In this document: positions 27,194 to 58,914 of the stretch, in pieces
How the letters are laid out: every line of letters starts with the position of its first letter
Numbering within the stretch: the stretch's first letter is position 1
Translations under genes and position numbers: made by a program
Assembly (NCBI RefSeq): GCF_025717535.1
Contig: NZ_JAJIRO010000004.1
Coordinates: forward strand, 372,001 to 436,000
Direction of reading: 5' to 3'
DNA length: 64,000 bases
Source of the DNA: Paucibacter sp. Y2R2-4
GTDB taxonomy: Bacteria > Pseudomonadota > Gammaproteobacteria > Burkholderiales > Burkholderiaceae_C
Notes under the pieces: model-generated
Told to the model about the DNA's origin: nothing
What the model saw: the letters and a program-made list of their open reading frames with translations, nothing else
The model's database searches: none

Positions 27194-27226
27194 GACGTAG
27201 ATCTAAAGGGTTAGACATTGCTTCAC

Positions 27227-30462: not shown

Positions 30463-30567
30463 CTGCGCCTCCCAGGCTTGGCTCATAGGCATCAGCGGTT
30501 CTTGCCGGCCTGATACCCAAGCTGAAAGCCGCTGTGTTGGCAGATTATGGGCTGCTTTGATGACGCC

Positions 30568-35658: not shown

Positions 35659-36918
35659 TTACTCGGTGTACATCGCCGCGTACTTGGCGCCGAAGTACAA
35701 GATGAAGGCATAGCAAGCGGCCGGCAGCAAGAAGGACATCTGCACGCCCAGGCTGTCGGCCAAAGCGCCTTGCGCAAAGGGAACCAAGGCGCCGCCGACG
35801 ATGGCCATGCACAGAATGCCCGAGCCTTGGCCGGTGTACTTGCCCAGGCCGTTCAGCGCCATGCTGAAGATGGTCGGGAACATGATGGAGTTGCAAAGAC
35901 CCACCGACAAAATGGCCCACATCGCCACCGTGCCCTTGCCGAACACCGCCGTCGACACCAAAGCAATCGCCAACAAGGAATTGAAGGCCAAAGTCTTGCC
36001 CGGGCTGACCGAACGCATCACCGCAAAGCCGATGAAACGACCCACCATGGCGCCACCCCAGTAGATGCTGACATAACTGGCAGCATCCGCGTGAGACAGC
36101 GAGGCGATGTGCGACTCGCCCAAGAAGTTCACCAAGAAGCTGCCAATGCTGACCTCGGCGCCCACATACAAAAAGATGCCAATCGCGCCCAGCACCAAAT
36201 GGCGGTGCGACCAGGCCGAGCCATGGCCTTCACCGGGCAAGGCCACATCTTCGCTGTCAGCAATCTGCGGCAGCTTGGCGGCCCAGAACAAAACGGCCAG
36301 CAAAACCAAGGCAGCCGCCAAGCCCAGATAGGGGCCGCGCACGCTAGCCGCATCGGAGGCCACGCCCACGGCCGACAAAATCAACATGCCGCCCACGGCC
36401 GGGCCGATGGTGGTGCCCAGCGAGTTGAAAGCCTGGGTGAGCGTTAAACGGCTGGATGCCGTGCGGGCTGGGCCGAGCACGGTCACATAAGGGTTGGCGG
36501 CCACCTGCAAGACCGTGATGCCCGAGGCCAGCACAAAGAAAGCGAACAGGAACAAGGCATAACCGCTGGACGAAGCGGGATAGAACAAGGCGCAGCCGGT
36601 GGCAGCAATCAGCAAGCCGGTCACCGCCCCCTTTTGATAACCAATGCGCCGAATCAAGGCGCCGGCCGGCAGCGAGACGATGAAGTAAGCGCCAAAGAAG
36701 CAGAACTGCACCAGCATCGCCTGCACATAAGTGAGGGTGTAGATGGCCTTCAGGTGCGGGATCAAGACGTCGTTCAGCGAGGTGATCAGCCCCCACATGA
36801 AAAACAGCAGGGTCACGATGATCAGCGGGCTGGTATTGCTTGCCCCAACTTGCGCTCCGTCCCCGCCTCCCTCCTGTTGCGGCGCGAGGCTCGCGCTCTT
36901 ATGTGCCATGTTTGCCAT
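35659..36918 (-). CDS. FucP-type major facilitator sugar transporter
   Basis: 419 residues with 12 expected helices. The FHS (fucose/glucose/galactose) group marks are [40 protein letters not shown], and [14 protein letters not shown]. These are proton symporters for hexoses. Given the mannosidases upstream and the mannose-to-fructose enzymes, mannose, fructose or glucose is the likely substrate. AGGAG lies eight bases before ATG 36918. A run of five TTCG tetramers lies about 50 bases upstream. It is the last gene of the minus-strand locus, 93 bases after the GH92 gene. Confidence 0.92.
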
Positions 36919-36963
36919 CTTGTCTCCTGGAATTGAAATGCTCGGTCAATCGTTGTTGGATCG

Positions 36964-36991
36964 GTCGTTCGTTCGTTCGTTCGTTCGCTCG
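36964..36991. repeat. (TTCG)5 tetranucleotide tract before the MFS gene
   Basis: Five perfect TTCG copies at 36968-36987, flanked by the near-copies GTCG and CTCG. It lies 50 bases upstream of the MFS start and 20 after the GH92 stop. Tetranucleotide runs like this can change copy number and so alter promoter or leader spacing. Confidence 0.75.
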
Positions 36992-37011
36992 CCTGGCCGC
37001 AGGCTTGCACT

Positions 37012-39492
37012 TTAGGGTGCAATGCCCGCGGGCGGATGGGGCAATTCCCTTCCCTTGGTTCCCCAGCCTTGCGGATCGGGCTGCGCTGACAGCTCGAAGC
37101 TCAGAGTATCGGCGGCCTGCAACTGCTCCCAGTCCAACCACACTTGCTTGTGCGCACTGCCGCCCCAGCGCACCGACTTCACAAAGCGGTGCTCGCCCGG
37201 CTTGGCCTCGGCGGCGTTGATGCGCAGGGTCCGCCCCGGCGCCAGGTCAATCTCGGCGCGAGCAAAGCGCGGCGCATGCAGCAAGAAGCGGCCGCTGCCG
37301 GGTGTGTCGGGGTAGAGGCCCAGGGCGCTGAACAAATACCAGGCGGACATGGTGCCCAGATCGTCGTTGCCGGTCACACCATTGGGTGCATTGCCAAACA
37401 GAGTTTCGGCCGCGCGCAGCACCGTGGTGGTCTTCCAGGGTTGACCGAGCAAGGTATAGACCCAAGGCGTGTGCAGATCAGGTTCATTGTTAGGGTTGTA
37501 GCGGAACTGGCTGTAATAGCTGTAGGGCCCAACGACCCAGGACTTGCGCACGGCTGTCGCGGGGTCCGCCAGCAAGGCGGGGTAGTCGAAGAAGTGATCC
37601 AGGCGTTGTGCCGCTTGCTCCTGCCCGCCCATGGCCTCCACGAGGCCAGGAATGTCCTGACGCACCAACCACTGGTACTGCCAAGCCGTGCCTTCGTGAA
37701 AACCACGCTCCGAGCGCGGGTCATAGCCGCCGTTTGCCAACGTCACCTCGCTGAACCAAGTTCCATCGGCCAGGCGCGGGCGCGGGAAGCCGCGCTGGCC
37801 AGTCGGGGCGTCTTGCACCTGCGCGTCCCAGACCTTGCGCCAATTTAGGGCGCGCTGATCCAGCAATTGCGCATCCTTCTTGTGGCCGAGTGCACGGGCC
37901 ATCTGGGCCAGCGAAGCATCGGCCAGCGAATACTCCAGCGTGGCCGAGGCGCCATGGTGCGGGTCCACGTCCATGCCCTTGGCTGGATAGCTGCGGTCAT
38001 ACTGAACAAAGCCCTGACTCAGATAGCTGGGGTTGCCGGCCCGGCCCTCGGGGCGCAGCAGCTTGCGCGGCACGCCAAAAGCGTTCTCGCGCAGGGCGGC
38101 ATAAGCCTCTTGCTCACGGCCTTTCAGCGCCCCATAACGCCAAAGATCGACGAGGAAAGGCGTGACCGGGTCACCGGTCATGATGTTGGTGTCGAAGTTG
38201 GCATAGCCCCAACGAGGCAGCCAGCCGCCTTGCTCGCGAATCTTCAGCACCGAGTTGGCGATGTCGCGGGCGCGCCCCGGGCGCAGCAAGGCCAGCAACT
38301 GGTTTTGTGTGCGGTAGGTGTCCCAGAGCGAGAAGAACTCGTAGTAGGTCCAGTCCTTGCCTTGGTGCTTGGCGCTGTGGATGCGGTCGTCATAGCCCCG
38401 GTAGCGGCCATCGGCATCGCTGCCGGTTAGCGGCTGAAGCAGTGAGTGATAGAGCGCCGTGTAGAACACGGTGCGGTCATCCGTGCTGCCGCCCTCGATG
38501 CGCACGCTGTTCAACTCACGTTGCCAAGTCGCCTGCGACTGTCCGCGCATGGTGTCGAAACTCAGCGCTGTCCCTTGCGCCGTCAGACCTTCAGCACGCA
38601 GATTGACGCGCGCGCCTTCGGCATCCACATGCGATATGGCGCTGACCGCGGTCACCGCCGGGCTGCTCTTCAGATCAAAGCTCAGCCACATGCCATGTGG
38701 GCGGGCCTCCCCTTGTTGGCTGGGACCTTTGGCGCCGGGCCAGCCGCCGCGATCGTCCCAAATGCCGTGGGCGACAAAGGGCCGATCGAAGGTCATGCGG
38801 AACCAGGTCGTGTACTGGGCGCCGCCGCAAAAGCTCTTGGTGGTGATCCTGCCTTCAACGCTGCGGCCGTCCTCCAGCACCTTAAGTTCGCTGCCGACCA
38901 CCGAGTGTTTCTCGTTGGCCTGGCCCAAGTTCAGTAGCAAATGGCCGGCGGGCGTTCCGGCGGCAAAGGTGTAGCGCTCGGCCGCTGCGCGGGTCAGGGC
39001 TGTGGTCTCGGCGCTGATGCCGCCATAGCTGGTCAGTTGAACTTTGTAGTAACCGGCCTGGCCGATTTCTCCCTCATGGGTGTATTCAGCGGCGTAGCGT
39101 TTGTGGTCGAAGCTCTCGGCCTTGGCGGTGTCAAAGTCTCCGCCGGGGCCGATGCGCCCGGTGACGGGCAGCACCGAGAGTTGACCGCCCTGCTCCCAGC
39201 AACCTGCGCCCGACAAATAGGAATGGCCGAAACCGCGGATACGGGTGTCGCTGTAGCGCCAGCCGGCATAGTGCTCACCGGTGGGGCTGACCTGGATCAT
39301 GCCGAAAGGGGCCGAGGCGCCGGGGAAGGTGTTGCCTTCATCCTGGGTGCCGATGAAGGTGTTGACAGGCGTGGGGTTGGGGGTGGCGGCGTGCAGCAAT
39401 GCGCTTGGCAAAGCAAACAAAGCCAGCAGGCAAGTTCGCAAGTACGAAGAGTTGGCGAGGCTGCGGGCGATGGGTGGGCGCGTCCACTTCAT
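37012..39492 (-). CDS. GH92 alpha-mannosidase
   Basis: 826 residues from ATG 39492. A signal peptide (LRTCLLALFALPSALLHA) precedes the GH92 pair of domains. N-terminal family marks are NTFPGASAPFGMIQVSP and GFGHSYLSGAGC; the C-terminal catalytic barrel holds the acidic GNDDLGTMSAWYLF motif and LGLYPDTPGSG. GH92 enzymes are calcium-dependent exo-alpha-mannosidases (mostly alpha-1,2 or alpha-1,3) acting on N-glycan mannose. The open frame runs upstream to 39774 through an inverted-repeat element; TTG 39774 or ATG 39756 (with GAGGGG nine bases before) would add 88-94 residues before the signal peptide, so the real start is uncertain. The best ribosome site near 39492 is weak. The operon context and the signal peptide favour 39492. 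Confidence 0.93.
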   Translation of the reverse strand: MKWTRPPIARSLANSSYLRTCLLALFALPSALLHAATPNPTPVNTFIGTQDEGNTFPGASAPFGMIQVSPTGEHYAGWRYSDTRIRGFGHSYLSGAGCWEQGGQLSVLPVTGRIGPGGDFDTAKAESFDHKRYAAEYTHEGEIGQAGYYKVQLTSYGGISAETTALTRAAAERYTFAAGTPAGHLLLNLGQANEKHSVVGSELKVLEDGRSVEGRITTKSFCGGAQYTTWFRMTFDRPFVAHGIWDDRGGWPGAKGPSQQGEARPHGMWLSFDLKSSPAVTAVSAISHVDAEGARVNLRAEGLTAQGTALSFDTMRGQSQATWQRELNSVRIEGGSTDDRTVFYTALYHSLLQPLTGSDADGRYRGYDDRIHSAKHQGKDWTYYEFFSLWDTYRTQNQLLALLRPGRARDIANSVLKIREQGGWLPRWGYANFDTNIMTGDPVTPFLVDLWRYGALKGREQEAYAALRENAFGVPRKLLRPEGRAGNPSYLSQGFVQYDRSYPAKGMDVDPHHGASATLEYSLADASLAQMARALGHKKDAQLLDQRALNWRKVWDAQVQDAPTGQRGFPRPRLADGTWFSEVTLANGGYDPRSERGFHEGTAWQYQWLVRQDIPGLVEAMGGQEQAAQRLDHFFDYPALLADPATAVRKSWVVGPYSYYSQFRYNPNNEPDLHTPWVYTLLGQPWKTTTVLRAAETLFGNAPNGVTGNDDLGTMSAWYLFSALGLYPDTPGSGRFLLHAPRFARAEIDLAPGRTLRINAAEAKPGEHRFVKSVRWGGSAHKQVWLDWEQLQAADTLSFELSAQPDPQGWGTKGRELPHPPAGIAP

Positions 39493-39700
39493 GTCCCCCG
39501 TCCGCTGCGCGGCCTCCTCCTTTACTTCCGTGGCCGCACCCACCCACCACCCGCCGCGATCCACCACTTCCCTATTCGGAAAACCATGGCTCATCGCTCC
39601 CGCGAAGCAGGCTGGCGGTGCGCCCCTGCGACGTAAGTAAAGGAGGAGGCCGCGCAGCGGACGGGGGACATGGAGTCGCAGGGGTGCGCCGGCAGCCTGC
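39490..39700. repeat. Alternating inverted-repeat element at the GH92 5' end
   Basis: Arm A, 38 bases, at 39490-39527 is the exact reverse complement of A' at 39635-39672. Arm B, 25 bases, at 39607-39631 pairs with B' at 39676-39700 at 22 of 25 positions. The order A-B-A'-B' means the two stems cannot form together in a simple fold. The first arm includes the likely GH92 start codon, and the frame stays open through the element. Confidence 0.85.
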
Positions 39701-39770
39701 GACTCAGGCGCCAGCACCCTTGGCTGCGGCGCTTGGTGATGTTTGAACTCGGTCATCTTTAGCCCCTCAC

Positions 39771-41240
39771 TCAACGCGCCTGCACTGGCGCCGTCAAGCG
39801 CAGCGGATGGGCTTCGGTATTGAAAGTGACCGCGTCAAAGTCCAGAGCAGACTTCGGCGCGAACAACAGATAGAAGTACTTGAAAGTCTCGGCAAAAACA
39901 AAACTCTCCATCGAGTCTTCTTGCACCTTGGTGCGCACATCCTTCAGTGCGGCATAGCCCGCTTCGCTGCGGCAGTAGCGCACAAAGGCTTCGAAGAACT
40001 CACGACCCATGGCGCGGTAGCGAGAATCGCCGGTGTAGTGATGCAGGTAGTAGGCCGACTCGACGATCTCGGGGCGCAGCGCATATTCGGGCGACAGAAC
40101 CTTCATGCGACGGTAGTCCATGGACTCGGGCTCAATGCCGTGCAGGCGCCACATGCGCAGGCCAGACTCTTGCAGCTTCTTGGCGCGCGGCACATCGCCG
40201 CCCAAGGCCAGCAGGGCCGGCATGAAGGCGTCCAGCGCGCCGTACTGCGTCTTGGTGCGGCGGCCGGTGTTCATATCGGCGTGGCCATACCAAAAGCCGG
40301 TTTTTGTCTCCTCACCCAGCACCTTGTTGACACCGGCAATGCTGTGGTCCCACATGGTTTTGCATTCCGCATCACCAAACAGTCGCCAGCATTTGTACAA
40401 ATACTCGTAGTAGGAATCGATGCCGCCGCCGATGTGCGCATCGGTGCGCTCCCAACGGCCAGTTTCCACATTGATGGCCGAGCCCACCACGCCATCCGCT
40501 GAGGCGCGGCGGTAGGTTTCAACCAGCGCACGCTTGGCCTTCTCAAAGTAGATGGGCTGGCCAGTCAGCTGACTCAACATGCCGAACTCAAGAATCAGCG
40601 TGCCGGTTTCGGCCGGGTTGCTGACCTTGCCGCTGACCTTGCCGGTGCGCAGATTCACATGGGTATAGGGCAGACCGGTGGGCGACTCGAAGACCGGCAG
40701 CAGGCGCTTGCCCAGGTCCTCGGCCTTGGCCAATAGGCGGGCATCTCCACTGAGTTGGTAGGCAGAAATCAGGCCCCCCAGCAAGCGAATGGTGATCTCG
40801 AAGTTCTGCACCGGCATGTCTTGGTCAAAAGACAGCTGGCTGGCGATCAGTTCGCGCGCTTCGTCAGACTCTTCCTTGAGACCCATCAGCAGCAGCGTGC
40901 TGAGCGCATCCACCGGCGTCATCAAGAGCGAGGCCGAATACCAGTCGTGGCCCTTCTTGCTCAGGGGCTTGAGCGCGTCATGACCCCAGGCGTATTGCTT
41001 GTAGCCTTTCCAAGCGTGCTGGGCTTCTTCCTTGACACGCTGGGCCAGCACGGCCGACTCGGCCTCGGTGACGGGTTGGAGCGCAGCCATCTTTGCGGAA
41101 GACGCGGAAGCAGTGTTTGCCGCTGTGGCCAAGACCGGCAGCACAGCCAAAGCCGCAACACACAAGCCCTTCAGCGCGAATCGAATCGGGCGAGCGGAGG
41201 AGGAGGACGAAGAAGGGCGGAGCGATGAATGTTGACTCAT
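39771..41240 (-). CDS. GH47 alpha-1,2-mannosidase
   Basis: 489 residues. A signal peptide (long Ser-rich n-region, then GLCVAALAVLPVLATA). GH47 marks run through the chain: GGGIDSYYEYLYK, LRPEIVESAYYLHHYTGD, ESFVFAETFKYFYLLF and the terminal FNTEAHPL with the calcium-ligand threonine. GH47 enzymes are inverting, calcium-dependent alpha-1,2-mannosidases; the family is mainly eukaryotic (ER/Golgi N-glycan trimming) and uncommon in bacteria. It overlaps the PfkB gene by 4 bases (ATGA) and lies directly before GH92. AAAGG nine bases before the ATG supports 41240. Confidence 0.95.
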   Translation of the reverse strand: MSQHSSLRPSSSSSSARPIRFALKGLCVAALAVLPVLATAANTASASSAKMAALQPVTEAESAVLAQRVKEEAQHAWKGYKQYAWGHDALKPLSKKGHDWYSASLLMTPVDALSTLLLMGLKEESDEARELIASQLSFDQDMPVQNFEITIRLLGGLISAYQLSGDARLLAKAEDLGKRLLPVFESPTGLPYTHVNLRTGKVSGKVSNPAETGTLILEFGMLSQLTGQPIYFEKAKRALVETYRRASADGVVGSAINVETGRWERTDAHIGGGIDSYYEYLYKCWRLFGDAECKTMWDHSIAGVNKVLGEETKTGFWYGHADMNTGRRTKTQYGALDAFMPALLALGGDVPRAKKLQESGLRMWRLHGIEPESMDYRRMKVLSPEYALRPEIVESAYYLHHYTGDSRYRAMGREFFEAFVRYCRSEAGYAALKDVRTKVQEDSMESFVFAETFKYFYLLFAPKSALDFDAVTFNTEAHPLRLTAPVQAR

Positions 41241-42175
41241 GATGAAACCTTTGTTGCTTCAAGCATCTCGAACAGGCCACGCATGGCCTGTGAATCTGGA
41301 GGGGTAGCACCCGACTGCAAACAGGCGGCCGAGCCGGCGGCCAGGGCCGCGTGCAAATGGGACTGCAATGAGCGCTCGGGGTGGCGGCTCAAGCTGAAGA
41401 GCAGACCGGCCGCGCTGGCATCGCCAGCACCGACCGTGTCCACCACGGCCACGGCCGGAGCCATGGCATCGGCACGGGCCTCGCCTCGGTAAAGGCTGGC
41501 CCCCTGCCCGCCGCGGGTCAGCAGGCATAAGGTGTGTTCGGGTCTGGGGTTGAGCGCGCGCAAGCGCTGCAGCGCCTCTTCCAAGGGCAGGCCGGGGAAG
41601 AGGCCGCGCAAATCATCGTCGGAGACCTTGATCAGGTCGGCCAAGGCGGCCATGCGATGCAGCGTCGGCGTGTAGCGCTCGTCCATCACCTTGCGGAAAT
41701 TGGGGTCGTAGCTGATGGCCACGCCTTGGGCCTTCAGGCTTTCGGCCAAGGCCACCAGCTTGGCGGCCAAAGGCTCACGCGCCAGGCTGATGCCGCCGAA
41801 GTGAGCCCAACGCAGGCCAGACGACCAGCCGGCGGGCAAGGCCTGCGCATCGAAGTAGAGGTCGGCGCTGTCATCGCCGATGAAGAAGTAACGCGGCGGC
41901 TCACCCTGCTCAACCATGGCCAGCAAGGGCGAACGCTCCACACGCTGCAGCAGTCGCAGGTCCAGGCCCACCGCCTCGCTGGCCGCCCACAGTTCATCGC
42001 CAAAGCGGTCTGCACTGATGGCCCCGGCAAAGGCGGTGCGCTCGCCCAAGGCCGCCAGAGCGCGGGCCACGTTCCAAACCGAACCTCCGACGCGCGCGAC
42101 CCAGTGCTCCTGGCCCTGGTGGATCATGTCGGTGAGCGCCTCGCCGGCACAGAGCATCAGAGGCGCGTCATGCAT
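41237..42175 (-). CDS. PfkB-family sugar kinase (probable fructokinase)
   Basis: 312 residues. Ribokinase fold: GEALTDMI at the start, GGSVWNVARALAALG (substrate-binding Gly pair), SYDPNFRKVM in the middle, and DTVGAGDASAAGLLF with the catalytic Asp. PfkB enzymes phosphorylate fructose, ribose or ketosugars. Because it overlaps an AGE-type isomerase gene (8 bases) and a mannosidase gene (4 bases), fructose to fructose-6-phosphate is the most sensible reaction. A mannokinase role is possible. Confidence 0.9.
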   Translation of the reverse strand: MHDAPLMLCAGEALTDMIHQGQEHWVARVGGSVWNVARALAALGERTAFAGAISADRFGDELWAASEAVGLDLRLLQRVERSPLLAMVEQGEPPRYFFIGDDSADLYFDAQALPAGWSSGLRWAHFGGISLAREPLAAKLVALAESLKAQGVAISYDPNFRKVMDERYTPTLHRMAALADLIKVSDDDLRGLFPGLPLEEALQRLRALNPRPEHTLCLLTRGGQGASLYRGEARADAMAPAVAVVDTVGAGDASAAGLLFSLSRHPERSLQSHLHAALAAGSAACLQSGATPPDSQAMRGLFEMLEATKVSS

Positions 42176-43397
42176 GGCCGGGGCCCTCGTCCAACACCGC
42201 GGCGATGTCGTAGCAAGCGCCCATGGTGTGATAGTCCACCTTGCCGGCAGGGCTCTTCTCGTCGCTGTACTTGCGGTTTTGCGAATCCAGAATGCGGAAC
42301 CAGGCGCCGTGCTGATGGTCGACGAAATGCGTCCAGCTGTAGGCCCAGAGGCGCTGGTACCAATCCCAGTAATAGGGATGATTGGTGCGCTGCGCCAGCA
42401 AGGCCGCTGCGGCGGCGCTTTCGGCCTGCACCCAGAAGTATTTGTCTGAGTCGCACACGCTGAGGTCAGGGGCGAGCGAGTAGCACAGGCCGCCGCGCTT
42501 GGCGTCCCAGCCCTTTTCCATCGCCACCTTGAACAGTCGCTCGGCCGTTGGGCGCGCCCAGCTCAAGTCCTTTTCCAGCACCGCGCCGCGGGCCTCCAAA
42601 AGAATGAGCAGCTTGGACCACTCGGTGAAGTGCCCAGGCTGATAGCCCCAGGGCCGGAAGAGATGGGCCGGGTCATCGATATTGAACAACCAGTTCGGCT
42701 GCCACTGGGCGTCGTAATGCTCCCAGATCAAGCCGCCACAGCGCTCGGCCTGGCGCTGACTGATGTTGTAGGCTACGGTGTAAGCGCGCTCCAGATAACG
42801 CTGATCTCCCGTGGCTTGGTGCGCGGCCAGCAGCGCTTCGCAAGCATGCATATTGGCGTTTTGTCCGCGGTAGCTGGAGCGCTCACTCCAGTCGCGACTG
42901 GCTTCGTCGGAGTAGAGGCCGGCCTGCTCATCCCAGAAGCAATGCTCCATCATCTCGAAAGCTTCTGCCACCCAGGGGCGAGCTTCCTCCAAGCCCGCCA
43001 TCAAGGCGTGCGAGTAAGCCAGCAGCACAAAGGCCTGGCCATAGGCGTGCTGCGTGCCGTCCAGCACCTCGGCCTTGCCGTCTTGCCAGTTCAGCAGCCA
43101 GGTGTAGCCGCCGCAAACTTGGTCCCGATGCGCCTCGCGCAAGAATCGCAGCGCGTGCTTGAGGCCGTCCAGATAGGCCGGGTCGCCAAAGTGGCGGTAA
43201 GCCATTGCATAGGTGAACACAAAGCGGGTGCTGCTGACCAGATGCCGCTGCTGCGCGTCATAGACCGTCCCGTTGTCCTTGAAGAAGTGATACATGCCGC
43301 CGCTGGGGTCGATGCAGCGCGGGTGATAGAAGCTCATGCTGTGTTGAGCATGGGCGAGCAGCGCCGCCCGAGAGCGGAAGTCGGGGAAATTGAACAT
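42168..43397 (-). CDS. AGE-family aldose-ketose isomerase (probable mannose isomerase)
   Basis: 409 residues, cytosolic. N-acylglucosamine 2-epimerase superfamily, an alpha6/alpha6 barrel: HPRCIDPSGGMYHFF, LVSSTRFVFTYAMAYRHFGD, LLNWQDGKAEVLDGTQHAYGQAFVLLA, and GHFTEWSKLLILLE, all typical of YihS/mannose isomerase-like members. Active histidines are probably those of TQHAYG, PGHFTEW and HTMG. The superfamily also includes GlcNAc and cellobiose epimerases, but the neighbouring mannosidases and PfkB kinase favour mannose to fructose. It lies 37 bases after lacI. Confidence 0.88.
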   Translation of the reverse strand: MFNFPDFRSRAALLAHAQHSMSFYHPRCIDPSGGMYHFFKDNGTVYDAQQRHLVSSTRFVFTYAMAYRHFGDPAYLDGLKHALRFLREAHRDQVCGGYTWLLNWQDGKAEVLDGTQHAYGQAFVLLAYSHALMAGLEEARPWVAEAFEMMEHCFWDEQAGLYSDEASRDWSERSSYRGQNANMHACEALLAAHQATGDQRYLERAYTVAYNISQRQAERCGGLIWEHYDAQWQPNWLFNIDDPAHLFRPWGYQPGHFTEWSKLLILLEARGAVLEKDLSWARPTAERLFKVAMEKGWDAKRGGLCYSLAPDLSVCDSDKYFWVQAESAAAAALLAQRTNHPYYWDWYQRLWAYSWTHFVDHQHGAWFRILDSQNRKYSDEKSPAGKVDYHTMGACYDIAAVLDEGPGHA

Positions 43398-43434
43398 GGT
43401 GAATGGAAGGGTTAGGGGCGCGTCGTCTGTTTGA

Positions 43435-44424: not shown

Positions 44425-44517
44425 AGCGGCGCCTCCTGGCGAGCAGAGCGCTCAAGCCGAGAGGACTGCGCTTGGCTCAGCAGCGAAATCAAGTGCATCG
44501 GGTGTCTCCGGTGTTCG

Positions 44518-44528
44518 GTTTATTAAAC
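44518..44528. promoter_or_regulatory. LacI-type operator, site 1
   Basis: GTTTATTAAAC, a perfect 11-base palindrome with centre T, 94 bases upstream of the lacI start. It matches the motif at four other sites in the locus. Confidence 0.75.
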
Positions 44529-44653
44529 GAATCTTGTGGTGCTTCTGGACGCGATCTGACGCTTGTTTGCCGCGTCATTTCATAGGTACGTTTTATATCT
44601 GCCGGCTTTTTTGGCGTCAATCAAAGCGCTCGAATTGGCGCTTTTTTAGGATG

Positions 44654-44664
44654 TTTTACTAAAC
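44654..44664. promoter_or_regulatory. LacI-type operator, site 2
   Basis: TTTTACTAAAC, within an AT-rich stretch between the PNGase gene and lacI. One base differs from the palindrome consensus. With site 1 it could support looping. Confidence 0.65.
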
Positions 44665-44701
44665 AAACGCAAGCCAGCGTTTTGGGGCCGAGCCAATTCG
44701 C

Positions 44702-46426: not shown

Positions 46427-46482
46427 AAACGTTCTTCTGAAATTCCTTTGAATCCGCGGGGCGCAGGGCCGGTAAGAACCCC

Positions 46483-48981: not shown

Positions 48982-49024
48982 GCCGCTTTTCTCTTTTCTC
49001 TTCAACATCAGGTCGCCGATCTCA

Positions 49025-51682: not shown

Positions 51683-51796
51683 TGAAGACCTATTCGCGCT
51701 GAAGAATGGAAGTGCCCCGCGAACGGCACTCAGGAATTCGGAGAGTGCCTGCATCTGCACCAAGCTGAGGTGCTGATGTCCGGCACAAGGCGGGAA

Positions 51797-53320
51797 CTAG
51801 CTCGACCACGCTTGAGCCTTGCAGTTCTGGTTGATGAAATCCTGATGCAACGGCATCGCGGCAACACAGTTCGCGACGACAGTGCGTACGTTTTCGACGT
51901 ACTTGGTCAACTCGCCTTCAGGCATCGAGTCCACGATGGGGTGGTAACCGCGCGGCACGACACGCTGGCCGAGCATGACCTGCACCCAGCTTGGCAATGC
52001 AAAGAAATCATCTGCGAAGCGGAGGTACCGCCCGTCACTTCGAAACAGATCGATCGCCTCGCGCAATGACTCCGGAATCGACATCGTGCGGCAGTAGTTC
52101 CAAAACGGTGAGTCGTCACGCTCGGTCGCGTGGTAGTGCAAGATCAAGAAATCACGCACTCGCTCGTACTCGGACGCGGTGTCCCGGTTGAAGCGGCTGG
52201 CAAGCAATGGGTCGAAGTTGCGATCCGGGAACAGACCAAGCAGTCTCGTGATTCCCGACTGAACCAAGTAAATGCTTGTGGATTCAAGCGGCTCCATGAA
52301 GCCACTGGCCAGCCCCAACGCGACGACATTCTTGTTCCAAAACTTCTTACGGCGCCCGGTGGTGAAGCGTAGCAATCGGGGGTCAGCAAGGGGCTTTCCA
52401 TCCAGATTGGCGAGTAAGGTCGCCGTCGCTTCATCGTCACTGATGTACTGACTTGCGTAGACATGTCCGTTGCCAACGCGATGCTGCAAGGGAATCCGCC
52501 ATTGCCAGCCGGCAGCATGAGCGGTTGAGCGGGTATAGGGCGTTAGTGGAACGCTACTTTCGCTGGGCACGGCGATTGCCCGATCACAAGGCAACCATTG
52601 AGACCAGTCTTCATAGCCGGTCTTCAGGGTCTGCTCAATCAAGAGGCCAACAAAGCCGGAGCAGTCGATGAACAGCTCGCCCTCGATGCGCTCACCGCTC
52701 TCCAGCACCACCGCCTCAATGTGGCCGCTTTCCGCGTTCTGCGTTACGTCGACAATCTTGCCCTCGTTCCGAACCACGCCCCGACTTTCCGACACTTTGC
52801 GCAAATAGCGCGCATACAGGCCGGCGTCGAAATGGTAGGCATAGGCAATGTTAGAGAGTGGCGACCCGGCCGGCGCGTTGGCCGGACTGACCATGAATTT
52901 GTCCAAGGGCGCGGCCACCGTCGGCAGGGCATAGGCACCAATGTCTGGCGCTCTCCCCGCCAAAAACAGCTTCAACCAAAGTTGGTGAAAAGGTAGCGGC
53001 CCGATGCCTTCGCCGATCTTGCCAAAGCCATGAATGTAGGAATCGCCGATGCCACCCCAATTTTTGAACTGGATACCAAGCTTGAAAGTACCCTGCGTTT
53101 CCTTGACGAAGTCGATTTCCCTAATGCCTATGGTCTCCGTGTTGAACACTTTCATCAGAGGAACGCTGGCTTCACCGACGCCCACGATGCCGATCTCCTC
53201 TGACTCAATCAGGCGGATGGAAGCATCTCGCCCAAGGTAGGTTACAAGCGCTGCAGCAGTCATCCAGCCTGCGCTGCCGCCTCCGACGATGACGATCTTC
53301 TTGATCCTGTTGTCATTCAT
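51797..53320 (-). CDS. Flavin-dependent tryptophan-halogenase family protein
   Basis: 507 residues. FAD-binding IVGGGSAGWMTAAAL at the start. The motifs needed for halogenation are all present: Lys80 in QGTFKLGI, GWQWRIP (Trp272, Trp274; the WxWxIP signature), and Glu346 in EPLEST, at the same numbers as in PrnA. Homologues like this often lie beside TonB-dependent receptors in sugar-utilisation loci, where the role is unknown. A flavin reductase partner is absent here. It follows the receptor gene on the same strand with a spacer of 166 bases. Confidence 0.9.
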   Translation of the reverse strand: MNDNRIKKIVIVGGGSAGWMTAAALVTYLGRDASIRLIESEEIGIVGVGEASVPLMKVFNTETIGIREIDFVKETQGTFKLGIQFKNWGGIGDSYIHGFGKIGEGIGPLPFHQLWLKLFLAGRAPDIGAYALPTVAAPLDKFMVSPANAPAGSPLSNIAYAYHFDAGLYARYLRKVSESRGVVRNEGKIVDVTQNAESGHIEAVVLESGERIEGELFIDCSGFVGLLIEQTLKTGYEDWSQWLPCDRAIAVPSESSVPLTPYTRSTAHAAGWQWRIPLQHRVGNGHVYASQYISDDEATATLLANLDGKPLADPRLLRFTTGRRKKFWNKNVVALGLASGFMEPLESTSIYLVQSGITRLLGLFPDRNFDPLLASRFNRDTASEYERVRDFLILHYHATERDDSPFWNYCRTMSIPESLREAIDLFRSDGRYLRFADDFFALPSWVQVMLGQRVVPRGYHPIVDSMPEGELTKYVENVRTVVANCVAAMPLHQDFINQNCKAQAWSS

Positions 53321-53486
53321 TGCTTCATCTCCCCTGGCCCGCGCAAAAATCGGTGAACGTCTTCATACTGTGGGCGCACAGTTCCTGAGCTTACAAACAG
53401 ATAAGACAAGTGGGCAGAGCCAAGTCTCACGACCAGCCGCTGCCCATCCATGCTCCCCAAGTCGAGCGCTTGGGGAGATTTGTCGA

Positions 53487-56400
53487 TCAGAACTTGTACG
53501 ACAGGCCCGTATACAGAACACGGCCGCTGTAATAGTTGCCGACGAGGCGGGCCGTGGTGTCATTGCCCAAGTGCTGCCGGCTCTCAGCCTTGGTCAAGTT
53601 CAGTACCGACGCTGTCAACGATAGATGGTCTGTGAAGTTATAGGCAGCGTTCAAATCGACCTGCGCATAAGGATCTGAGTAAACGGTCATTCCACTGGAC
53701 AGACCGTTGACCACTTCTCCTCGGTGGTTGTAAGAGGCGCGCAGCAACAGATCTTTGGTTTCGTAGAACACCGTCAAATTGGCCTGAGTCTTGGCACTAC
53801 CGGTCAACGGCGACTCACCCAACTGCTGACCGTTGAGGTCGATGGCAGCCTTGTTGGTCTTGTTGTAGGTGTAGTTTGCTTGGAAACCGAGGCCCGAGCT
53901 GAAAGTGTGTTGTGCGTACAGTTCAATGCCCTGCGACACAGCGTTGCGGCCTGCGGCAGTGGTTTGAAAACCCTGAACGATCGCACCTTGTCCATTGATC
54001 ACCTGCGGTTGGTCAACCACCACCGGCACAGCGAAGTTCGCCACGTTCTTGCGGAAAAGCGCGCCGCCCAAGACAGACCCGCGATGGAAGTACCACTCCA
54101 GGCCAAGATCGAACTGGGTGGCTCTGAACGGTTCCAGGTTCTTGTTGCTACCTGAACCTGACCAACCCGGAATGCAGCCCCCACCCGCCAACTGAGATTC
54201 CTGGGCATATTGTGTGGAGCAATAAGTCAGATCGCCGGGGGAAGCAATATCGCCGTACGAAGGCCGAGCGATTACCTTAGACGCGGCGCCGCGCAAAACC
54301 AGATTATTGGAAAGGTCATAAGCCACATTGAGGCTGGGCAAGACGTCGGTGTAGCTTCGGTCCACCGACGTGACCGCATAGGTTTCGACGTTCAGGTCAT
54401 CCTTCACATAGCCGCCTTGGCAGCCTTTACCTGGAACTGGTGAATTGTTCGGATCAGAGCACGGGACGAGGCTGCCGGACGGATCGCGGTAAAGGAAGTG
54501 CCGCTTGTCGTGGACCTTATCGGTCGAATCCGCATGCTGCTTTGTTTGCACCAGCCTCAGACCGACGTTGCCTCGTAAACGGTCTGTCGAAAAATTAGCC
54601 TGGAAATAGCCAGCCCAAATTTTCTCGCCAACGTTGTACACATAGTTCGGCTCGATGCGCGTTCGCATGCTGCCGTAGGTCTTGTTCAAGTAGTCGAGAT
54701 AGGCCTGCTCATTGATCTCCGGAAATGTATTTGCCGAGAAGCCGCCTGGGATATTGGTGGTTGGCTGAGACTGGAAGTAAGCCGCTTGGCCGACTCCGCT
54801 ATCGCATGATTGGAACTTGCTGCTGTCGTAATCGACGAAATTCGGACAGGCCCAGAAGTTGTTTCCAGTGTGACGATGCACACCGCCATCACGATATTTC
54901 AGGCCAAACTGCAAGTTGTCCAACCAGTCAATGGTGAGCTTCTTGGTGAAATCAACCTGCGCGTAGTTTTGCCAAGTCTCATTCGCTGTAAATGAGGAGT
55001 TGGTACCTCCTAGATCAACCTCAGAGATGCCATTCATGAGGTTCTGCTGCAGTTGCGGCGAGAAGGTTGCTGACGGCCGGCCCGTCAAATCCCAAGTGCT
55101 ATCGGTGTTGCCGACGCCCGGCACCCCATTACGGAAGCTTCGCGGATTGATTTGGATATTGAACGCCAGCGGCGAATCAGCCTTGGCCTGTGTACGTCCA
55201 ATCTTGAAGTCGGCATCGATGAAATCGCTGCGCCACTCACCAGCGAAGTCGAAAGTCTGCGACTTGACGGTTTGATGGTGAATGTCAGCGTAAAACGAGG
55301 GCGTCTGCATGACGCAATCGGTCTCACCCCAGCCTGTGGGCGGGTTGACTCCGGCCGCCGCTGCATCTGCATTGGAGCAGATGGGCTTGTTCCTTTGCAG
55401 TTGCTGGCCTGTCACGATGGTTCCACTGGGATCAAAGGTAAAACCCTTGAGGTGCCGACCGGTCTTCGCGGAAGCCGGGCTGTCCCAATCCCAAACATGC
55501 ATATCCCACTCAGCGATCTTCGCTTGGTGAAGGAAGTAATCATCCTTCAGACCGAAATTGAAGTAGTTGGCTGTCAGCGTCAAGTTGTCCGTTGCCTTGA
55601 GCTGCGCGGTCAGCTGCGCACCTGTGCGCTCCTTTTGCTGGTCGTAATCGCGAAACCCTACGGCTGTCGGCATCCAGAAGCCCGAGTAGTGCTGCCCGGT
55701 TTGCGTCGTCATTCCGTTGGTGCAGCAACCTCCCCACCAGGCTCCTGAACCTGAGGGCAGTGCGTGACCATTGACATCCACCGGCTTATTCACCAGACCG
55801 CCATTGGAGTTCTTGTCGCTCCACCAAGCAAAGTTCTCCGTGGAGACCCCCAGGCTGCGATCCTGACGCTTCTGATAGGTCACGCCTCCAAGGAGCCCGA
55901 AACGTTTGTCTTCACTGCGCCATGAATACATGCCGGACAGTTGTGGATCAAATCGTTGCGTGGTATCGGACCAAGTGCCCTCGACGTTGCCAAAGGCGCT
56001 ACCCGAGGGCATATCCAGTGGTCGGCGAGTGTGCAAGATCACAGTGCCGCCAACGCCACCCTCATCCAGACGCGCTTCCGAAGACTTGTACAACTCAGCT
56101 TTGCCAAGCATGCTGGCGGGAAGCAGCGCATAGTTGAATGAGCGAGAAGGGTCACTGTTAGCCTCGCCCGAAGCGATGAAGTTGCCGTTCAACTGGGTCA
56201 AGGTGAGTTCGGGTGACAAACCCCGAACACTGACACTCTTGCCTTCGCTACCAGGCCGTCCACCACTGCTTTCGCGGGAGATCACCACACCCGGCACACG
56301 TTGAAGTGCATCGGCAACGTTTTTGTCAGGGAACTTCCCAATGTCTTCAGCCGTGATCACCTCGATAACCGAGTTGGCATCGCGCTTCTGGGCCAAACTC

Positions 56401-56612
56401 TTCTCAATGGAGGAGCGGTAGCCGGTCACAACCACGGTTTCAAGTTGGCTGGCATCCGTCTTGGCCTCGGCCTTGCTGTCTGCCTTGTTCTCAGCCGGCG
56501 CTGTTTGCGCATGGGCGGCACTCAGCGCCAAGAGCGTGGCACCCACCGCTGCGGCGATGGGGGTTGTGGACCAACGTTGCTGTCGTGAAGCGAGAGAGGT
56601 TCTTGTCATCAT
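53487..56612 (-). CDS. TonB-dependent receptor
   Basis: 1041 residues. A signal sequence of about 35 residues ends near SAAHAQ. A TonB box ETVVVTG lies at residues 58-64. The plug domain follows (VITAEDIGKFPDKNVADALQ, VPGVVISRESSGG, SVRGLSPELT), then a long barrel with many periplasmic turns, ending with SGRVLYTGLSYKF. Large receptors of this kind (over 950 residues) commonly import glycans. AGGAG eight bases before ATG 56612 supports this start. Upstream in 56613-57121 are three copies of the LacI-type operator. It is the first gene of the minus-strand run. Confidence 0.95.
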   Translation of the reverse strand: MMTRTSLASRQQRWSTTPIAAAVGATLLALSAAHAQTAPAENKADSKAEAKTDASQLETVVVTGYRSSIEKSLAQKRDANSVIEVITAEDIGKFPDKNVADALQRVPGVVISRESSGGRPGSEGKSVSVRGLSPELTLTQLNGNFIASGEANSDPSRSFNYALLPASMLGKAELYKSSEARLDEGGVGGTVILHTRRPLDMPSGSAFGNVEGTWSDTTQRFDPQLSGMYSWRSEDKRFGLLGGVTYQKRQDRSLGVSTENFAWWSDKNSNGGLVNKPVDVNGHALPSGSGAWWGGCCTNGMTTQTGQHYSGFWMPTAVGFRDYDQQKERTGAQLTAQLKATDNLTLTANYFNFGLKDDYFLHQAKIAEWDMHVWDWDSPASAKTGRHLKGFTFDPSGTIVTGQQLQRNKPICSNADAAAAGVNPPTGWGETDCVMQTPSFYADIHHQTVKSQTFDFAGEWRSDFIDADFKIGRTQAKADSPLAFNIQINPRSFRNGVPGVGNTDSTWDLTGRPSATFSPQLQQNLMNGISEVDLGGTNSSFTANETWQNYAQVDFTKKLTIDWLDNLQFGLKYRDGGVHRHTGNNFWACPNFVDYDSSKFQSCDSGVGQAAYFQSQPTTNIPGGFSANTFPEINEQAYLDYLNKTYGSMRTRIEPNYVYNVGEKIWAGYFQANFSTDRLRGNVGLRLVQTKQHADSTDKVHDKRHFLYRDPSGSLVPCSDPNNSPVPGKGCQGGYVKDDLNVETYAVTSVDRSYTDVLPSLNVAYDLSNNLVLRGAASKVIARPSYGDIASPGDLTYCSTQYAQESQLAGGGCIPGWSGSGSNKNLEPFRATQFDLGLEWYFHRGSVLGGALFRKNVANFAVPVVVDQPQVINGQGAIVQGFQTTAAGRNAVSQGIELYAQHTFSSGLGFQANYTYNKTNKAAIDLNGQQLGESPLTGSAKTQANLTVFYETKDLLLRASYNHRGEVVNGLSSGMTVYSDPYAQVDLNAAYNFTDHLSLTASVLNLTKAESRQHLGNDTTARLVGNYYSGRVLYTGLSYKF

Positions 56613-56814
56613 CTTCTGTCTCCTGTTCGCACCCAAGAAGGGGCTTTGTTCGGTAGTAGCAGGGATGCCACAGGACTCGATGTATCGAGTCCTCCGGACC
56701 ATCCAACTTGAAGCGCCATGCAAATCTCAGCAACTCAAACCGCCCGGATCCGGCAGCTCGGTTTTGTTTGTCGCCCCAAGGCGCGTGGTCCGCGATTCGG
56801 GGATTACCCTAGGT

Positions 56815-56825
56815 ATTTACTAAAC
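56815..56825. promoter_or_regulatory. LacI-type operator, site 3
   Basis: ATTTACTAAAC, followed by AAACAAA. It lies about 200 bases upstream of the receptor start and matches the palindrome consensus at 10 of 11 positions counted outward from the central base. Confidence 0.7.
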
Positions 56826-56937
56826 AAACAAAACAGCGTTTAAAACCGCTGGGCATTGCATTTCACCCAGGTAAATTTATACAAAGGATGATTAAGACCT
56901 TCAACAAACTTTCATTTTTTGGCCGCAGTTTAGTTTT

Positions 56938-56948
56938 GTTTAGTAAAC
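56938..56948. promoter_or_regulatory. LacI-type operator, site 4
   Basis: GTTTAGTAAAC, a perfect palindrome around the central G. The best copy of the five, at the middle of the divergent spacer. Confidence 0.78.
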
Positions 56949-57104
56949 CAGAATGCGGCGGGCTTGCGACACTTGGCAGGCGCCATGCTCAAACCCTAGA
57001 CTCCGCGCAAGAGCAAGCCCTAGACTGCGCGCCACGCGGGCCTAGCGAGCATTTCAGCTGCTGTATTCAGCGCTTGTTAGGCGGAACAAAATCGACTCGA
57101 GTTT

Positions 57105-57115
57105 GTTTAGCAAAA
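57105..57115. promoter_or_regulatory. LacI-type operator, site 5
   Basis: GTTTAGCAAAA, a weaker copy ending seven bases before the ROK-kinase ATG at 57122, where a bound repressor would block transcription or early elongation. Confidence 0.6.
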
Positions 57116-57121
57116 CACTAA

Positions 57122-58171
57122 ATGAGTTCTCAGACCGCGAGTTGCAGCAAACCTCACGAGGCCTTTCCCATGTCCCCAATTTCCCTTGCCGCAAGCAAAG
57201 CCAAAACCCAGCTCAACTCCATGCCCAATACCCCAGGCGATGTGCTGCTGGCTGATATTGGAGGCTCGCATATCAGGCTGGGACGACTGCGTCAGGGGCA
57301 AGGGTCAGAGCCGACTTGCGAACTGATTGCCACCCTGCCCACGCCCACCCAGGATTGGTCGCTGTTCAGCACGGCCTTGTGCGAGACCGTGCGCCCATTC
57401 ATGAAGTCCGCATCCGCTTTGTCCATCTCAATCGCCGGCCTGGTGGCGCCTGAAACCGGACAAGTCACCGCCGCCAACATCCCCTGCCTGGCCTCGCGGC
57501 CTCTGGCCCAGGAACTGCAGGCTCTATTGGGCCTGCCAGTGATCGTCACCAATGACGCCGATTGCGCCGCCTTGGCCGAGGCCAGGGTCGGCGTCGGGCG
57601 GGGCCACGACGTGGTGTTTTGCGCCATCCTGGGCACCGGGGTCGGAGGTGGATTGGTGGTCAACGAGCGCCTGGTGCGCGGCGCCGGCGGCCTCACCGGG
57701 GAATGGGGCCATGGCCCCGTCGTGAACGAGGCGCTCTTGCGAACCGGCGACGGCCGCAGTGTGACCTTGCCCCGATTCGCATGTGGATGCGGCTTGAGCG
57801 GCTGCGTCGATACCGTGGGCGGCGCGCGCGGCTTGGAGCGGCTGCACAGCTTTTTGCATCAAACGAAATTGAACAGCCGGCAAATCCTAGAAGCCTGGTT
57901 GGACGCCGAGCCCACGGCTGTAGCGACGGTGCAGGCCTATATCGAGCTGGTGTCGGGGCCGCTGGCCTTGGTCGTCAATGTCACTGGGGCCAGCGTGGTG
58001 CCCGTCTGCGGCGGCCTGAGCCGCTGTGCTGAGCTGATCACGGTCTTGGATGTGGCGGTGCGCAAGCAAATTCTGCGCAAAGGCGATCAAGCCCTGCTCG
58101 TGCCCAGCCAGCTGAATGACCAAGCCGGATTGATCGGCGCGGCCTATGCGGCCGAAGCCTTCTTCCAATGA
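57122..58171 (+). CDS. ROK-family sugar kinase (glucose or N-acetylglucosamine)
   Basis: 349 residues. ROK fold: LLADIGGSHIRLG (ATP phosphate loop), VTNDADCAALAEA (catalytic Asp region), GTGVGGGLVV, GEWGHG, and the zinc site CGCGLSGCVD. The last is diagnostic of the family. Likely products are glucose-6-phosphate or GlcNAc-6-phosphate; in an N-glycan locus both are plausible. The first 45 residues look unstructured, so in-frame ATGs at 57170 or 57221 are also possible; no ribosome site is clear for any. It overlaps cutC by 4 bases (ATGA). Confidence 0.88.
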   Translation: MSSQTASCSKPHEAFPMSPISLAASKAKTQLNSMPNTPGDVLLADIGGSHIRLGRLRQGQGSEPTCELIATLPTPTQDWSLFSTALCETVRPFMKSASALSISIAGLVAPETGQVTAANIPCLASRPLAQELQALLGLPVIVTNDADCAALAEARVGVGRGHDVVFCAILGTGVGGGLVVNERLVRGAGGLTGEWGHGPVVNEALLRTGDGRSVTLPRFACGCGLSGCVDTVGGARGLERLHSFLHQTKLNSRQILEAWLDAEPTAVATVQAYIELVSGPLALVVNVTGASVVPVCGGLSRCAELITVLDVAVRKQILRKGDQALLVPSQLNDQAGLIGAAYAAEAFFQ

Positions 58172-58914
58172 GCCAAACCATGCGATTGCTTGATGTGTTG
58201 CTCGAAGTTTGTGTGGACGATGTCGCGGGCATGGAGGCCGCCGTCGAAGGCGGCGCCGACCGCATCGAGCTCTGTAGCAGCCTGGACCTGGGCGGCCTCA
58301 CGCCCTCGGCCGGGCTGATGCGGGAGGCCGCCAAGCTGCCCATCCCGGTGCATGCGCTGATTCGCCCGCGCGCTGGAGGCTTTGTCTACGGCGCGGCCGA
58401 AGAGCGGGTCATGCGCCGAGATATTGAGCAAGCCGCCGAACAAGGTCTGGCCGGCCTGGCCATCGGCGCGATGAACCCTGAGGGCCGCTTGGATCTGCCC
58501 CTGCTGCGGCGCTTGATTCAAGCCGCGCCTGGGCTGCAACTGACCCTGCACCGCGCTTTTGACTTGGTGCGTGAGCCGCAAGCGGCCTTGGAGGAAGCCA
58601 TCTCGCTGGGCTTTCACCGTATTCTCAGTTCGGGCGGAGCGCTGACCGCGCCGGCCGGCACCGCGCAACTCGCCGCCCTGGTCGCACAAAGCCATGGCCG
58701 CATCCAAATCCTGGCCGGCAGCGGCATCCAGGCCGAGAACGTGCAAGCCTTGCTCAGCGCCAGCAACGTGCCGGAGATTCATGCCTCCTGCCGCGCGCCG
58801 GCCCTTGCCGCCACCCCCGAATTGCTGGCCTTTGGCTTTGCCGCCCCCAGCGCCCGCGCCACCTCGGCCGCCTTGGTGCGGGCCTTGAAGGAGCAGCTGC
58901 TGGCGCACCCTTGA
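58168..58914 (+). CDS. cutC: CutC family TIM-barrel protein
   Basis: 248 residues. Family marks are LLEVCVDDVAGMEAAVEGGADRIELC, GGLTPSAGLM, HALIRPRAGGF, TLHRAFD, RILSSGG and AGSGI. CutC was first linked to copper homeostasis in E. coli but that role is disputed, and the conserved TIM barrel looks like an enzyme. It starts in a 4-base overlap with the ROK kinase and lies at the edge of the glycan locus, hinting at a carbohydrate-related role here. That is inference. Confidence 0.92.
   Translation: MSQTMRLLDVLLEVCVDDVAGMEAAVEGGADRIELCSSLDLGGLTPSAGLMREAAKLPIPVHALIRPRAGGFVYGAAEERVMRRDIEQAAEQGLAGLAIGAMNPEGRLDLPLLRRLIQAAPGLQLTLHRAFDLVREPQAALEEAISLGFHRILSSGGALTAPAGTAQLAALVAQSHGRIQILAGSGIQAENVQALLSASNVPEIHASCRAPALAATPELLAFGFAAPSARATSAALVRALKEQLLAHP

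Follow-up and report, generated by a model that had tools for sequence, protein, structure and literature searches.

The locus that occupies positions 35659-58914 of a 64,000-nucleotide stretch of Paucibacter sp. Y2R2-4 (contig NZ_JAJIRO010000004.1; the whole stretch is called the window below) raises the question of which sugars its genes serve, and of what a CutC-family protein and a halogenase-like protein are doing among its glycosidases. Protein families, motifs, conservation, co-occurrence and palindromes were computed, and from these we infer the substrates, the order of the steps, the binding of LacI, the chemistry of CutC and the role of the halogenase. By its gene content and synteny, this is a real and conserved locus of the Paucibacter group, of the TonB-receptor type and predicted to serve N-glycan utilisation; that it is controlled by LacI and that its products cut, trim and consume N-glycans we regard as very likely. 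All 13 genes exceeded the family cut-offs in Pfam scans, with best-match E-values per protein that ranged from 3.7e-21 (the MFS carrier) to 3.2e-192 (the halogenase). On the minus strand, the genes read in the order TonB receptor, halogenase-like protein, GH2, GH31, PNGase, lacI, AGE, PfkB, GH47, GH92 and carrier, while ROK and then CutC lie on the plus strand, divergent from the receptor. The genes, coordinates and arrangement named in the original prediction, which was made from the letters alone, were each recovered in the Pfam scans. A receptor, an inner-membrane carrier, degradative enzymes and a regulator are found in one place, as in the so-called CUT loci.

The PNGase (44702-46426, in an open reading frame that reaches 46486) has a signal peptide and the motifs of its family, and it matched PNGF-II (PDB 4r4x) over residues 57-592 with 654 bits. 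Its Pfam domains, an N-terminal bowl (PF22252) with PF09112 and PF09113, form the type II architecture. In the part of PMC9522356 that was available, Gly380 and Glu419 (418 in one passage) accompany the acceptance of core alpha-1,3-fucose by type II PNGases. The window protein has both, the Gly in FIGNYD and the Glu in IMEMA, aligned to chain positions 351 and 390 of 4r4x, where the E. meningoseptica type II numbering 380/419 was converted to 351/390 by a single offset of 29 (our count). A tree of 23 PNGase rows, which were close relatives from a pattern scan only, placed the five betaproteobacterial sequences in one group (100/99) amid 18 Bacteroidota rows. The gene is also the poorest in G+C within the locus (0.52, compared to 0.56-0.57 for the receptor and the halogenase and 0.63 for the window), and the single group together with the low G+C suggests that the PNGase may have entered the Paucibacter lineage by one transfer. 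The betaproteobacterial origin that had been predicted for this DNA agrees with the named relatives retrieved with the PNGase, namely Paucibacter oligotrophus CHU3, Paucibacter sp. DJ2R-2, the Burkholderiales metagenome-assembled genome (MAG) PBB2 and a Rubrivivax MAG.

The substrate had been predicted to be high-mannose N-glycans. This is favoured by the GH47 protein (39771-41240; signal peptide read by eye; 418 bits in Pfam), whose catalytic domain is full-length (profile positions 3-454 of 455, Pfam) and whose best PDB match, 4ayo, is a mannosyl-oligosaccharide 1,2-alpha-mannosidase; an exclusive preference is not supported, since the PNGase carries the type II Gly/Glu pair. According to the available part of PMC12381499, PNGaseL of F. 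akiainvivens acts on high-mannose, plant, invertebrate and mammalian glycans, which makes high-mannose glycans a likely yet non-exclusive substrate here. The PNGase of F. akiainvivens (L023) stands in the same tree at 56% identity. Somewhat unlikely, in our judgement, is a locus that serves chiefly N-glycans of the plant or algal type that bear core alpha-1,3-fucose or some other cap, and not high-mannose glycans as such. The type II signature and the acceptance of plant and invertebrate as well as high-mannose glycans by PNGaseL speak for it, as does the best PDB match of GH92, 7zgm, which we take to be the Bacteroides massiliensis alpha-1,3-mannosidase whose partner is a PNGase of type II. 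It is opposed by the lack of GH29 in the genome, by the lack of any other fucosidase or xylosidase domain in Pfam scans of the locus, and by GH47 itself, which is typical for high-mannose trimming. On two Bacteroidota plasmids, GH47 adjoins a pyruvate formate lyase-family glycyl-radical enzyme and its activase (L218 11917-16504; L219 8383-13338).

For N-glycans, high-mannose ones included, the following order of steps is proposed. Sec-type signal peptides without a lipobox were read by eye on GH92, GH47, PNGase, GH31 and GH2, and none was seen by eye on AGE, PfkB, ROK, CutC or the halogenase, a pattern that probably puts the glycan-cleaving enzymes in the periplasm and the sugar metabolism in the cytosol. 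The TonB receptor (53487-56723, likely start at about 56612; Pfam, and 692 bits to TIGR01782 with a cut-off of 310) would bring N-glycopeptides or released glycans across the outer membrane, and the PNGase would sever the glycan from Asn in the periplasm, a reaction of which the first product is a glycosylamine. Any capping glucose would be taken off by GH31 (46483-49044), an alpha-glucosidase-like protein in Pfam with a WNDMNE motif and PDB matches to alpha-glucosidases, including ER glucosidase II. GH47 would trim alpha-1,2-mannose, GH92 (37012-39492; Pfam GH92 and GH92N, GNDDLG motif) the remaining alpha-mannose, and GH2 (49025-51763; Pfam, WCGNNE and SEYG motifs, 881 bits to the beta-mannosidase 6bye) would act as the exo-beta-mannosidase. 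The GH92 start was set, by our reading, at the Met that precedes the Sec-type signal; the frame stays open up to 39774, and these 94 further upstream codons (39492-39774) can be aligned in two relatives that carry the locus (G374 and G378) and not in a third (G371), which leaves the true start uncertain.

GH92, GH47 and GH2 occur in mannan loci as well, and the PNGase is both the gene of lowest G+C and one of the two most divergent proteins of the locus. It could be argued on these grounds that another alpha-mannan, from yeast or algae, is the substrate and the PNGase a passenger. We consider this quite improbable: the PNGase is present in five of five carriers, at the same position in the three with assembled loci, the best match of GH2 is a beta-mannosidase, and Pfam scans of the locus returned neither GH76 nor GH99.

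After trimming of the N-glycan, the released mannose would enter the cytosol by the GluP-type carrier (35659-36918; Pfam MFS_1), for which mannose uptake is the probable function. The description of this protein as FucP-type was close; it exceeds the NCBIfam cut-off for the glucose/galactose transporter gluP (375.7 bits, cut-off 202.55) and falls under that for fucP. The AGE-family protein (42168-43397; Pfam GlcNAc_2-epim), a probable mannose isomerase, would turn mannose into fructose, and PfkB (41237-42175; Pfam PfkB), a probable fructokinase whose gene shares 8 bp with AGE and 4 bp with GH47, would yield fructose-6-phosphate. The best PDB matches of AGE were 3gt5 and 5x32, followed by YihS-type proteins; the former two are presumably from Xylella and Marinomonas, and 5x32 is presumably a mannose isomerase. 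Among NCBIfam models, AGE scored highest with D-mannose isomerase, at 240.6 bits with an equivalog cut-off of 600, and PfkB with the fructokinase PRK09434, also under its cut-off. Because both models lie under their cut-offs, we infer the route from mannose through fructose to fructose-6-phosphate. The core of two N-acetylglucosamine (GlcNAc) residues would be left to enzymes encoded elsewhere, possibly the GH20 of a second TonB-receptor locus, and ROK (57122-58171, plus strand; Pfam) would phosphorylate an amino sugar; its best NCBIfam model is the N-acetylglucosamine kinase PRK13310, under cut-off.

Several observations weigh against this scheme. The genome holds a single GH92, which would have to cleave every remaining alpha-linkage unless other families assist, and GH31 would have no necessary role on mature N-glycans. 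AGE, PfkB and ROK all fall under the NCBIfam equivalog cut-offs. The locus has no enzyme that cleaves GlcNAc-GlcNAc: neither GH20 nor GH18 nor glycosylasparaginase was found in it, and genome-wide only GH20 and GH29 were sought. A PNGase of type II would lead one to expect fucosylated cores, yet the genome search did not find GH29. The only GH20 of the genome lies in a mixed locus with GH1, GH3 and GH30, so that it need not serve N-glycans, and G371 carries the locus with no GH20 match, which disfavours GH20 as a fixed partner. That second receptor-type locus (L084 1-18679) consists of a TonB receptor, GH3, GH1, ABC-transporter parts, a halogenase, GH30, an acetylesterase and the GH20 in a single run. 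The original idea that N-glycans are cut, trimmed and consumed is well supported by the families and their catalytic motifs, by synteny and co-occurrence, and by an operator candidate common to the two promoter regions; it needs amending for the GlcNAc-GlcNAc core, whose enzyme is not in the locus.

The distribution of the genes among related genomes supports their belonging together. PNGase, GH47 and CutC each matched the identical five of 18 genomes of the genus (G000, G371, G374, G378 and G379); as the genes are linked, they are inherited together and do not supply three independent proofs. Outside the genus GH47 is rare, with one match in 250 genomes of the order, namely the source genome itself. 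PNGase matched one of 299 genomes of the family and one of 369 of the class, each time the source genome only, and CutC was over the cut-off in one of 150 family genomes (again the source genome), with one more weak match under the cut-off. The other carriers of the genus were evidently not drawn in the order, family and class samples, being absent among their matches. Synteny is retained in G371, G374 and G378, where the gene order is largely the same; in G371, ROK and CutC are placed after the carrier gene and not beside the receptor. In G379, the locus lies in contig pieces, and no receptor or halogenase was found on the pieces fetched. The comparison of gene neighbourhoods that had been suggested returned a syntenic gene set, with PNGase and GH47 in exactly the same five of 18 genomes, beyond chance. 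Identity to the window proteins was 91-93% for LacI, 87-89% for the carrier, 84-86% for GH47, 80-82% for AGE and 67-72% for CutC, and it was lowest for PNGase (60-64%) and the receptor (53-56%); on these values, the predicted substrate-facing part of the locus is the part that evolves fastest.

Between the PNGase and lacI halves, G374 and G378 contain unrelated DNA (L010 11895-20776 and L011 11799-13868) that encodes AIPR, AAA plus methyltransferase and open reading frames without assignment, and in G379 lacI is preceded on its contig by unrelated DNA (L033 1-6636). The gap between PNGase and lacI looks as if it were an insertion hot spot. This extra DNA upstream of lacI was considered as a home of the missing GlcNAc enzymes, which was not supported: none of the ten open reading frames scanned, which were not all of those present, encodes a glycosidase, and the three with a Pfam match were AIPR, AAA plus methyltransferase and a beta-lactamase-like protein.

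The LacI-family repressor (43435-44424; Pfam; 91-93% identity in four relatives) had been proposed to control the locus. A palindrome scan limited to the window missed the operator candidate, whereas a cross-strain comparison of nine promoter stretches from five strains recovered the palindrome GTTTANTAAAC. The best seed of length 16 had a mean match of 0.83, and the best seeds of ten shuffled sets reached 0.66-0.70; this comparison flatters the motif, since shuffling destroys the relatedness between the strains. Two candidate sites lie upstream of lacI, an exact one at 44518-44528 and one with a single mismatch at 44654-44664, 136 bp away, and two lie between the receptor and ROK, one with a single mismatch at 56815-56825 and an exact one at 56938-56948. 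Sites with at most one mismatch thus number four in the 64 kb window, with 0.15 expected and none of 100 shuffles reaching four; the counted pattern was chosen from the same promoters on which it was counted, which belongs with the points that weigh against the scheme. Exact copies, sought in fetched stretches that total 2.66 Mb and partly overlap, were confined to the lacI and receptor/ROK regions of the locus, in five genomes. The pair upstream of lacI is spaced by 136-137 bp in five of five genomes (in the window, one of the pair has a mismatch), and G374, G378 and G379 have copies between the receptor and ROK or upstream of ROK (L036/L107, L177/L106 and L105). Six other stretches of the source genome (106 kb, the GH20 locus included) held no copy, nor did the gap between GH47 and GH92. 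The palindrome common to the lacI and receptor/ROK-CutC promoters probably places ROK and CutC in the LacI regulon, so that the locus probably forms a single LacI regulon; the proposed control is supported by these candidate operators.

ROK and CutC had been described as divergent neighbours of the run. Their position was as described, and to call them mere neighbours no longer fits, as the operator candidate and the strain distribution are common to both and the locus. CutC (58168-58914, plus strand; Pfam 239 bits) overlaps ROK by 4 bp and has a full-length domain (profile positions 2-200 of 202). Because it shares strains and the operator candidate with the locus, the family was examined in other bacteria, and it was found in 69 of 398 genomes of a phylum sample. 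Thirty-nine of these 69 loci were chosen so that each genus contributed roughly one and enteric and f233 genomes were reduced in number, and the G378 locus (L177, of the window's own genus) was added. Asparaginase_2, the superfamily of glycosylasparaginase, occurred in nine of the 40 stretches of about 12.6 kb, and 15 of them held a kinase of the ROK, glucokinase or BadF type. At least one probe for N-glycan or amino-sugar genes matched at 19 of the 40 loci, and none did in 40 control windows drawn from 20 of these genomes, the probe families having been picked for recurring in the loci tested; without the seven loci that had supplied probes, the figures were 12 of 33 and none of 40. Both the loci and the plasmid regions described below were hand-picked, and these shares are for that reason not unbiased. 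In L148, the order was GH92, an unscanned protein of 604 aa, GH2, CutC, GH85, Asparaginase_2 and BadF kinase.

Plasmids gave a similar picture. Of 67 records that matched, 24 regions were viewed, mostly non-enteric, three of them unannotated and Pfam-scanned in part. N-glycan, amino-sugar or sugar-kinase neighbours of CutC were found in 20 of the 24 (14 genera), with near-copies from Hymenobacter (three), Pseudoalteromonas (three), Persicobacter (two) and Paracoccus (two) in the set. Glycosylasparaginase and CutC stand with GH92 in the three Hymenobacter records; the neighbours are nagA, gluP, ROK, GH20 and nagB in Kozakia, and GH20, nagB and a Rid hydrolase in Loktanella, and S. meliloti has amidase-ROK-CutC plus nagA. 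Paracoccus is also among the twenty. Asticcacaulis brings GH2, a TonB receptor, a tryptophan halogenase, CutC and a BadF kinase together. On two megaplasmids of Persicobacter, from another phylum, CutC has SusD on one side and, on the other, a PNGase F that lacks the bowl domain, with GH92 next in one. The weakest of the twenty were Pseudoalteromonas, whose three records show only a BadF kinase and a receptor, Novosphingobium, with a single SIS protein scanned, and Listeria, with a phosphotransferase system, a sugar isomerase and ROK; four of the 24 regions, from three genera (Parabacteroides, two Enterococcus and Salmonella), had no such neighbours. CutC recurs, then, in N-glycan and amino-sugar operons of many unrelated bacteria, adjacent to glycosylasparaginase, PNGase, GH85/GH92, ROK or BadF kinases and NagA/NagB; its recurrent partners are a ROK, glucokinase or BadF kinase and an enzyme that either cleaves an amide, such as PNGase, glycosylasparaginase, an amidase or an amidohydrolase, or yields GlcNAc. 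A run of CutC with an M81-family metallopeptidase was also seen in Peteryoungia, Loktanella and Palleronia (L231, L233 and L234), in two cases with GH20.

Whether CutC is an enzyme of N-glycan or amino-sugar breakdown that works with a sugar kinase, and not primarily a copper protein, we find as easy to believe as to doubt. Across 41 CutC sequences, E13, E34, H128, R129, D132 and H205 are invariant. Cys15 is kept in 33 of 41 and Cys36 in 36 of 41, the window protein having both; these Cys are the putative metal-binding residues of CutC. Invariant residues of this kind, next to Cys that part of the family lacks, would suit an enzyme, with copper binding possible for the proteins that keep the Cys. 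A structure predicted from one sequence was too poor to be used (mean pLDDT 40.2). PNGase and glycosylasparaginase both leave 1-amino-GlcNAc, and this common product led us to propose, speculatively, that the amino-sugar step of CutC acts on the 1-amino-GlcNAc from amide cleavage or on its 6-phosphate. That CutC and ROK are unrelated neighbours, with CutC devoted to copper, seems to us improbable. The family name, the Cys residues, the Salmonella, Enterococcus and Parabacteroides regions without amino-sugar or N-glycan genes and the 21 of 40 chromosomal loci that matched no probe are what it can draw on. The operator candidate and strains shared with the locus and the amino-sugar neighbours repeated in other bacteria argue the other way, and both Cys are missing in five sequences (L139, L140, L142, L144 and L145), three of which (L142, L144 and L145) belong to glycosylasparaginase operons. 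The copper phenotype of E. coli cutC has reportedly been traced to the small RNA MicL. The available part of PMC6718126 lists cutC as a copper gene together with the nix genes of Xanthomonas, and among the papers listed in the searches for CutC none was seen that assigns it a role in sugar use, which is no proof of absence. A possible amino-sugar role of CutC is the most valuable lead of the locus. The structure of a human CutC homologue has been solved (a PDB match), and since the family extends to humans, the same step may exist there.

The halogenase-like gene was present as predicted, and the earlier scheme gives it no explanation. The protein (51797-53320; Pfam Trp_halogenase 640 bits; PDB 6y1w, 9luq and 6frl) resembles flavin-dependent halogenases of the Xcc4156/BrvH kind, 6frl being BrvH and 6y1w presumably Xcc4156. 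Its motifs are intact: GGGSAG at 13 (GxGxxG), TFKLG at 78 (catalytic Lys), WQWRIP at 272 (WxWxIP) and EPLESTS at 343 (catalytic Glu). In a sample of 200 genomes of the order, with no more than seven candidates scored in each, at least 20 strong halogenase matches (at least 389 bits) were found in nine genomes, six of these matches in the source genome. With neighbours judged by tblastn, HMM and Pfam in this order only, a TonB receptor lay within 9 kb of 13 of the 17 testable genes (the window gene included) and was lacking at four, and three further halogenases at contig ends had no receptor in the available DNA. Control windows from other genomes had a receptor in three of 40 cases, two of them weak. 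Eleven other halogenases were examined by pattern; among the eight that are receptor-linked, all keep WxWxIP and the Glu, and six the Lys motif as written.

These observations suggest to us that Xcc4156/BrvH-type halogenases may be accessories of TonB-receptor glycan loci, with the receptor, the ligand or a signal as a possible target of modification. On the doubtful side of even, we place a halogenase whose substrate, be it a small molecule or a peptide, has no relation to glycans and which does no more than share the receptor. The intact motifs are compatible with such a substrate, and in the parts of the literature available, relatives halogenate indoles, and the native substrates of BrvH and of the Xanthomonas enzymes are reported as unknown. 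This is countered by the position of the gene within the glycan operon in four of five carriers (not on the G379 pieces fetched), by the 13 of 17 genes near a receptor and by the Asticcacaulis member, which stands with GH2, CutC and BadF kinase. TonB is not mentioned in PMC5945002, PMC7336383 or PMC8269204 on this enzyme group, and the available part of the CUT-locus paper, PMC1790865, does not mention halogenases. In two genomes, a TonB receptor, SapC, Cupin_8 and a halogenase form one run (L086 9286-15628; L098 4238-10755; two of the 13), possibly a receptor-modification set, and three of the four receptor-less halogenases (L087, L092 and L101) have a PEP-CTERM protein in the region, with L087 and L101 lacking WxWxIP.

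The predicted likeness in logic to the Xanthomonas N-glycan cluster, with a different enzyme set, was well supported. As far as the available text of PMC6718126 goes, the nix cluster (with nag) likewise has a TonB receptor, a beta-mannosidase, an alpha-mannosidase and cutC (XAC3091) in the region. Here, PNGase F replaces the glycosyl hydrolase NixF, and GH47, GH31, the AGE/PfkB route and the halogenase are present, while no fucosidase, NixF hydrolase, hexosaminidase (GH20) or galactosidase domain was found by Pfam among the locus genes. The Bacteroides type II PNGase loci, in the available part of PMC9522356, share the bowl-domain PNGase, GH92, a SusC receptor in some loci and GH2 in an associated locus; the present locus differs in a single TonB receptor without SusD, in GH47, in the cytosolic AGE/PfkB route and in its betaproteobacterial host. 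In the available part of PMC12381499, the operon of PNGaseRz has a mannosidase and an asparaginase, and most of the six PNGase genes of that paper are called orphans, in contrast to the full locus described here. The CUT loci, in the part of PMC1790865 mentioned above, also hold a receptor, an inner-membrane carrier, enzymes and a regulator together; the locus studied here is set apart by its presumed N-glycan substrate, its 13 genes and the halogenase and CutC. Elsewhere in the window, a minus-strand run at 26018-31815 (patatin, TPR-S, DUF4062 as a weak, under-cut-off overlap, and a methyltransferase) resembles a defence cluster.

In this freshwater Paucibacter-type bacterium, a PNGase of type II stands with GH47 in a betaproteobacterial locus that has one receptor and a predicted isomerase/fructokinase route for mannose in the cytosol. 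For N-glycan use this is an unusual combination, and it would connect CutC and the halogenase, two families whose purpose is unclear, with one substrate. Where the two genes are placed, in this locus and in others, suggests functions in sugar use that have so far gone unrecognised. The link of the halogenase offers a physiological setting in which the native substrate of BrvH and Xcc4156 could be sought, and if CutC serves amino-sugar or N-glycan breakdown, the label it bears in very many genomes would be wrong.

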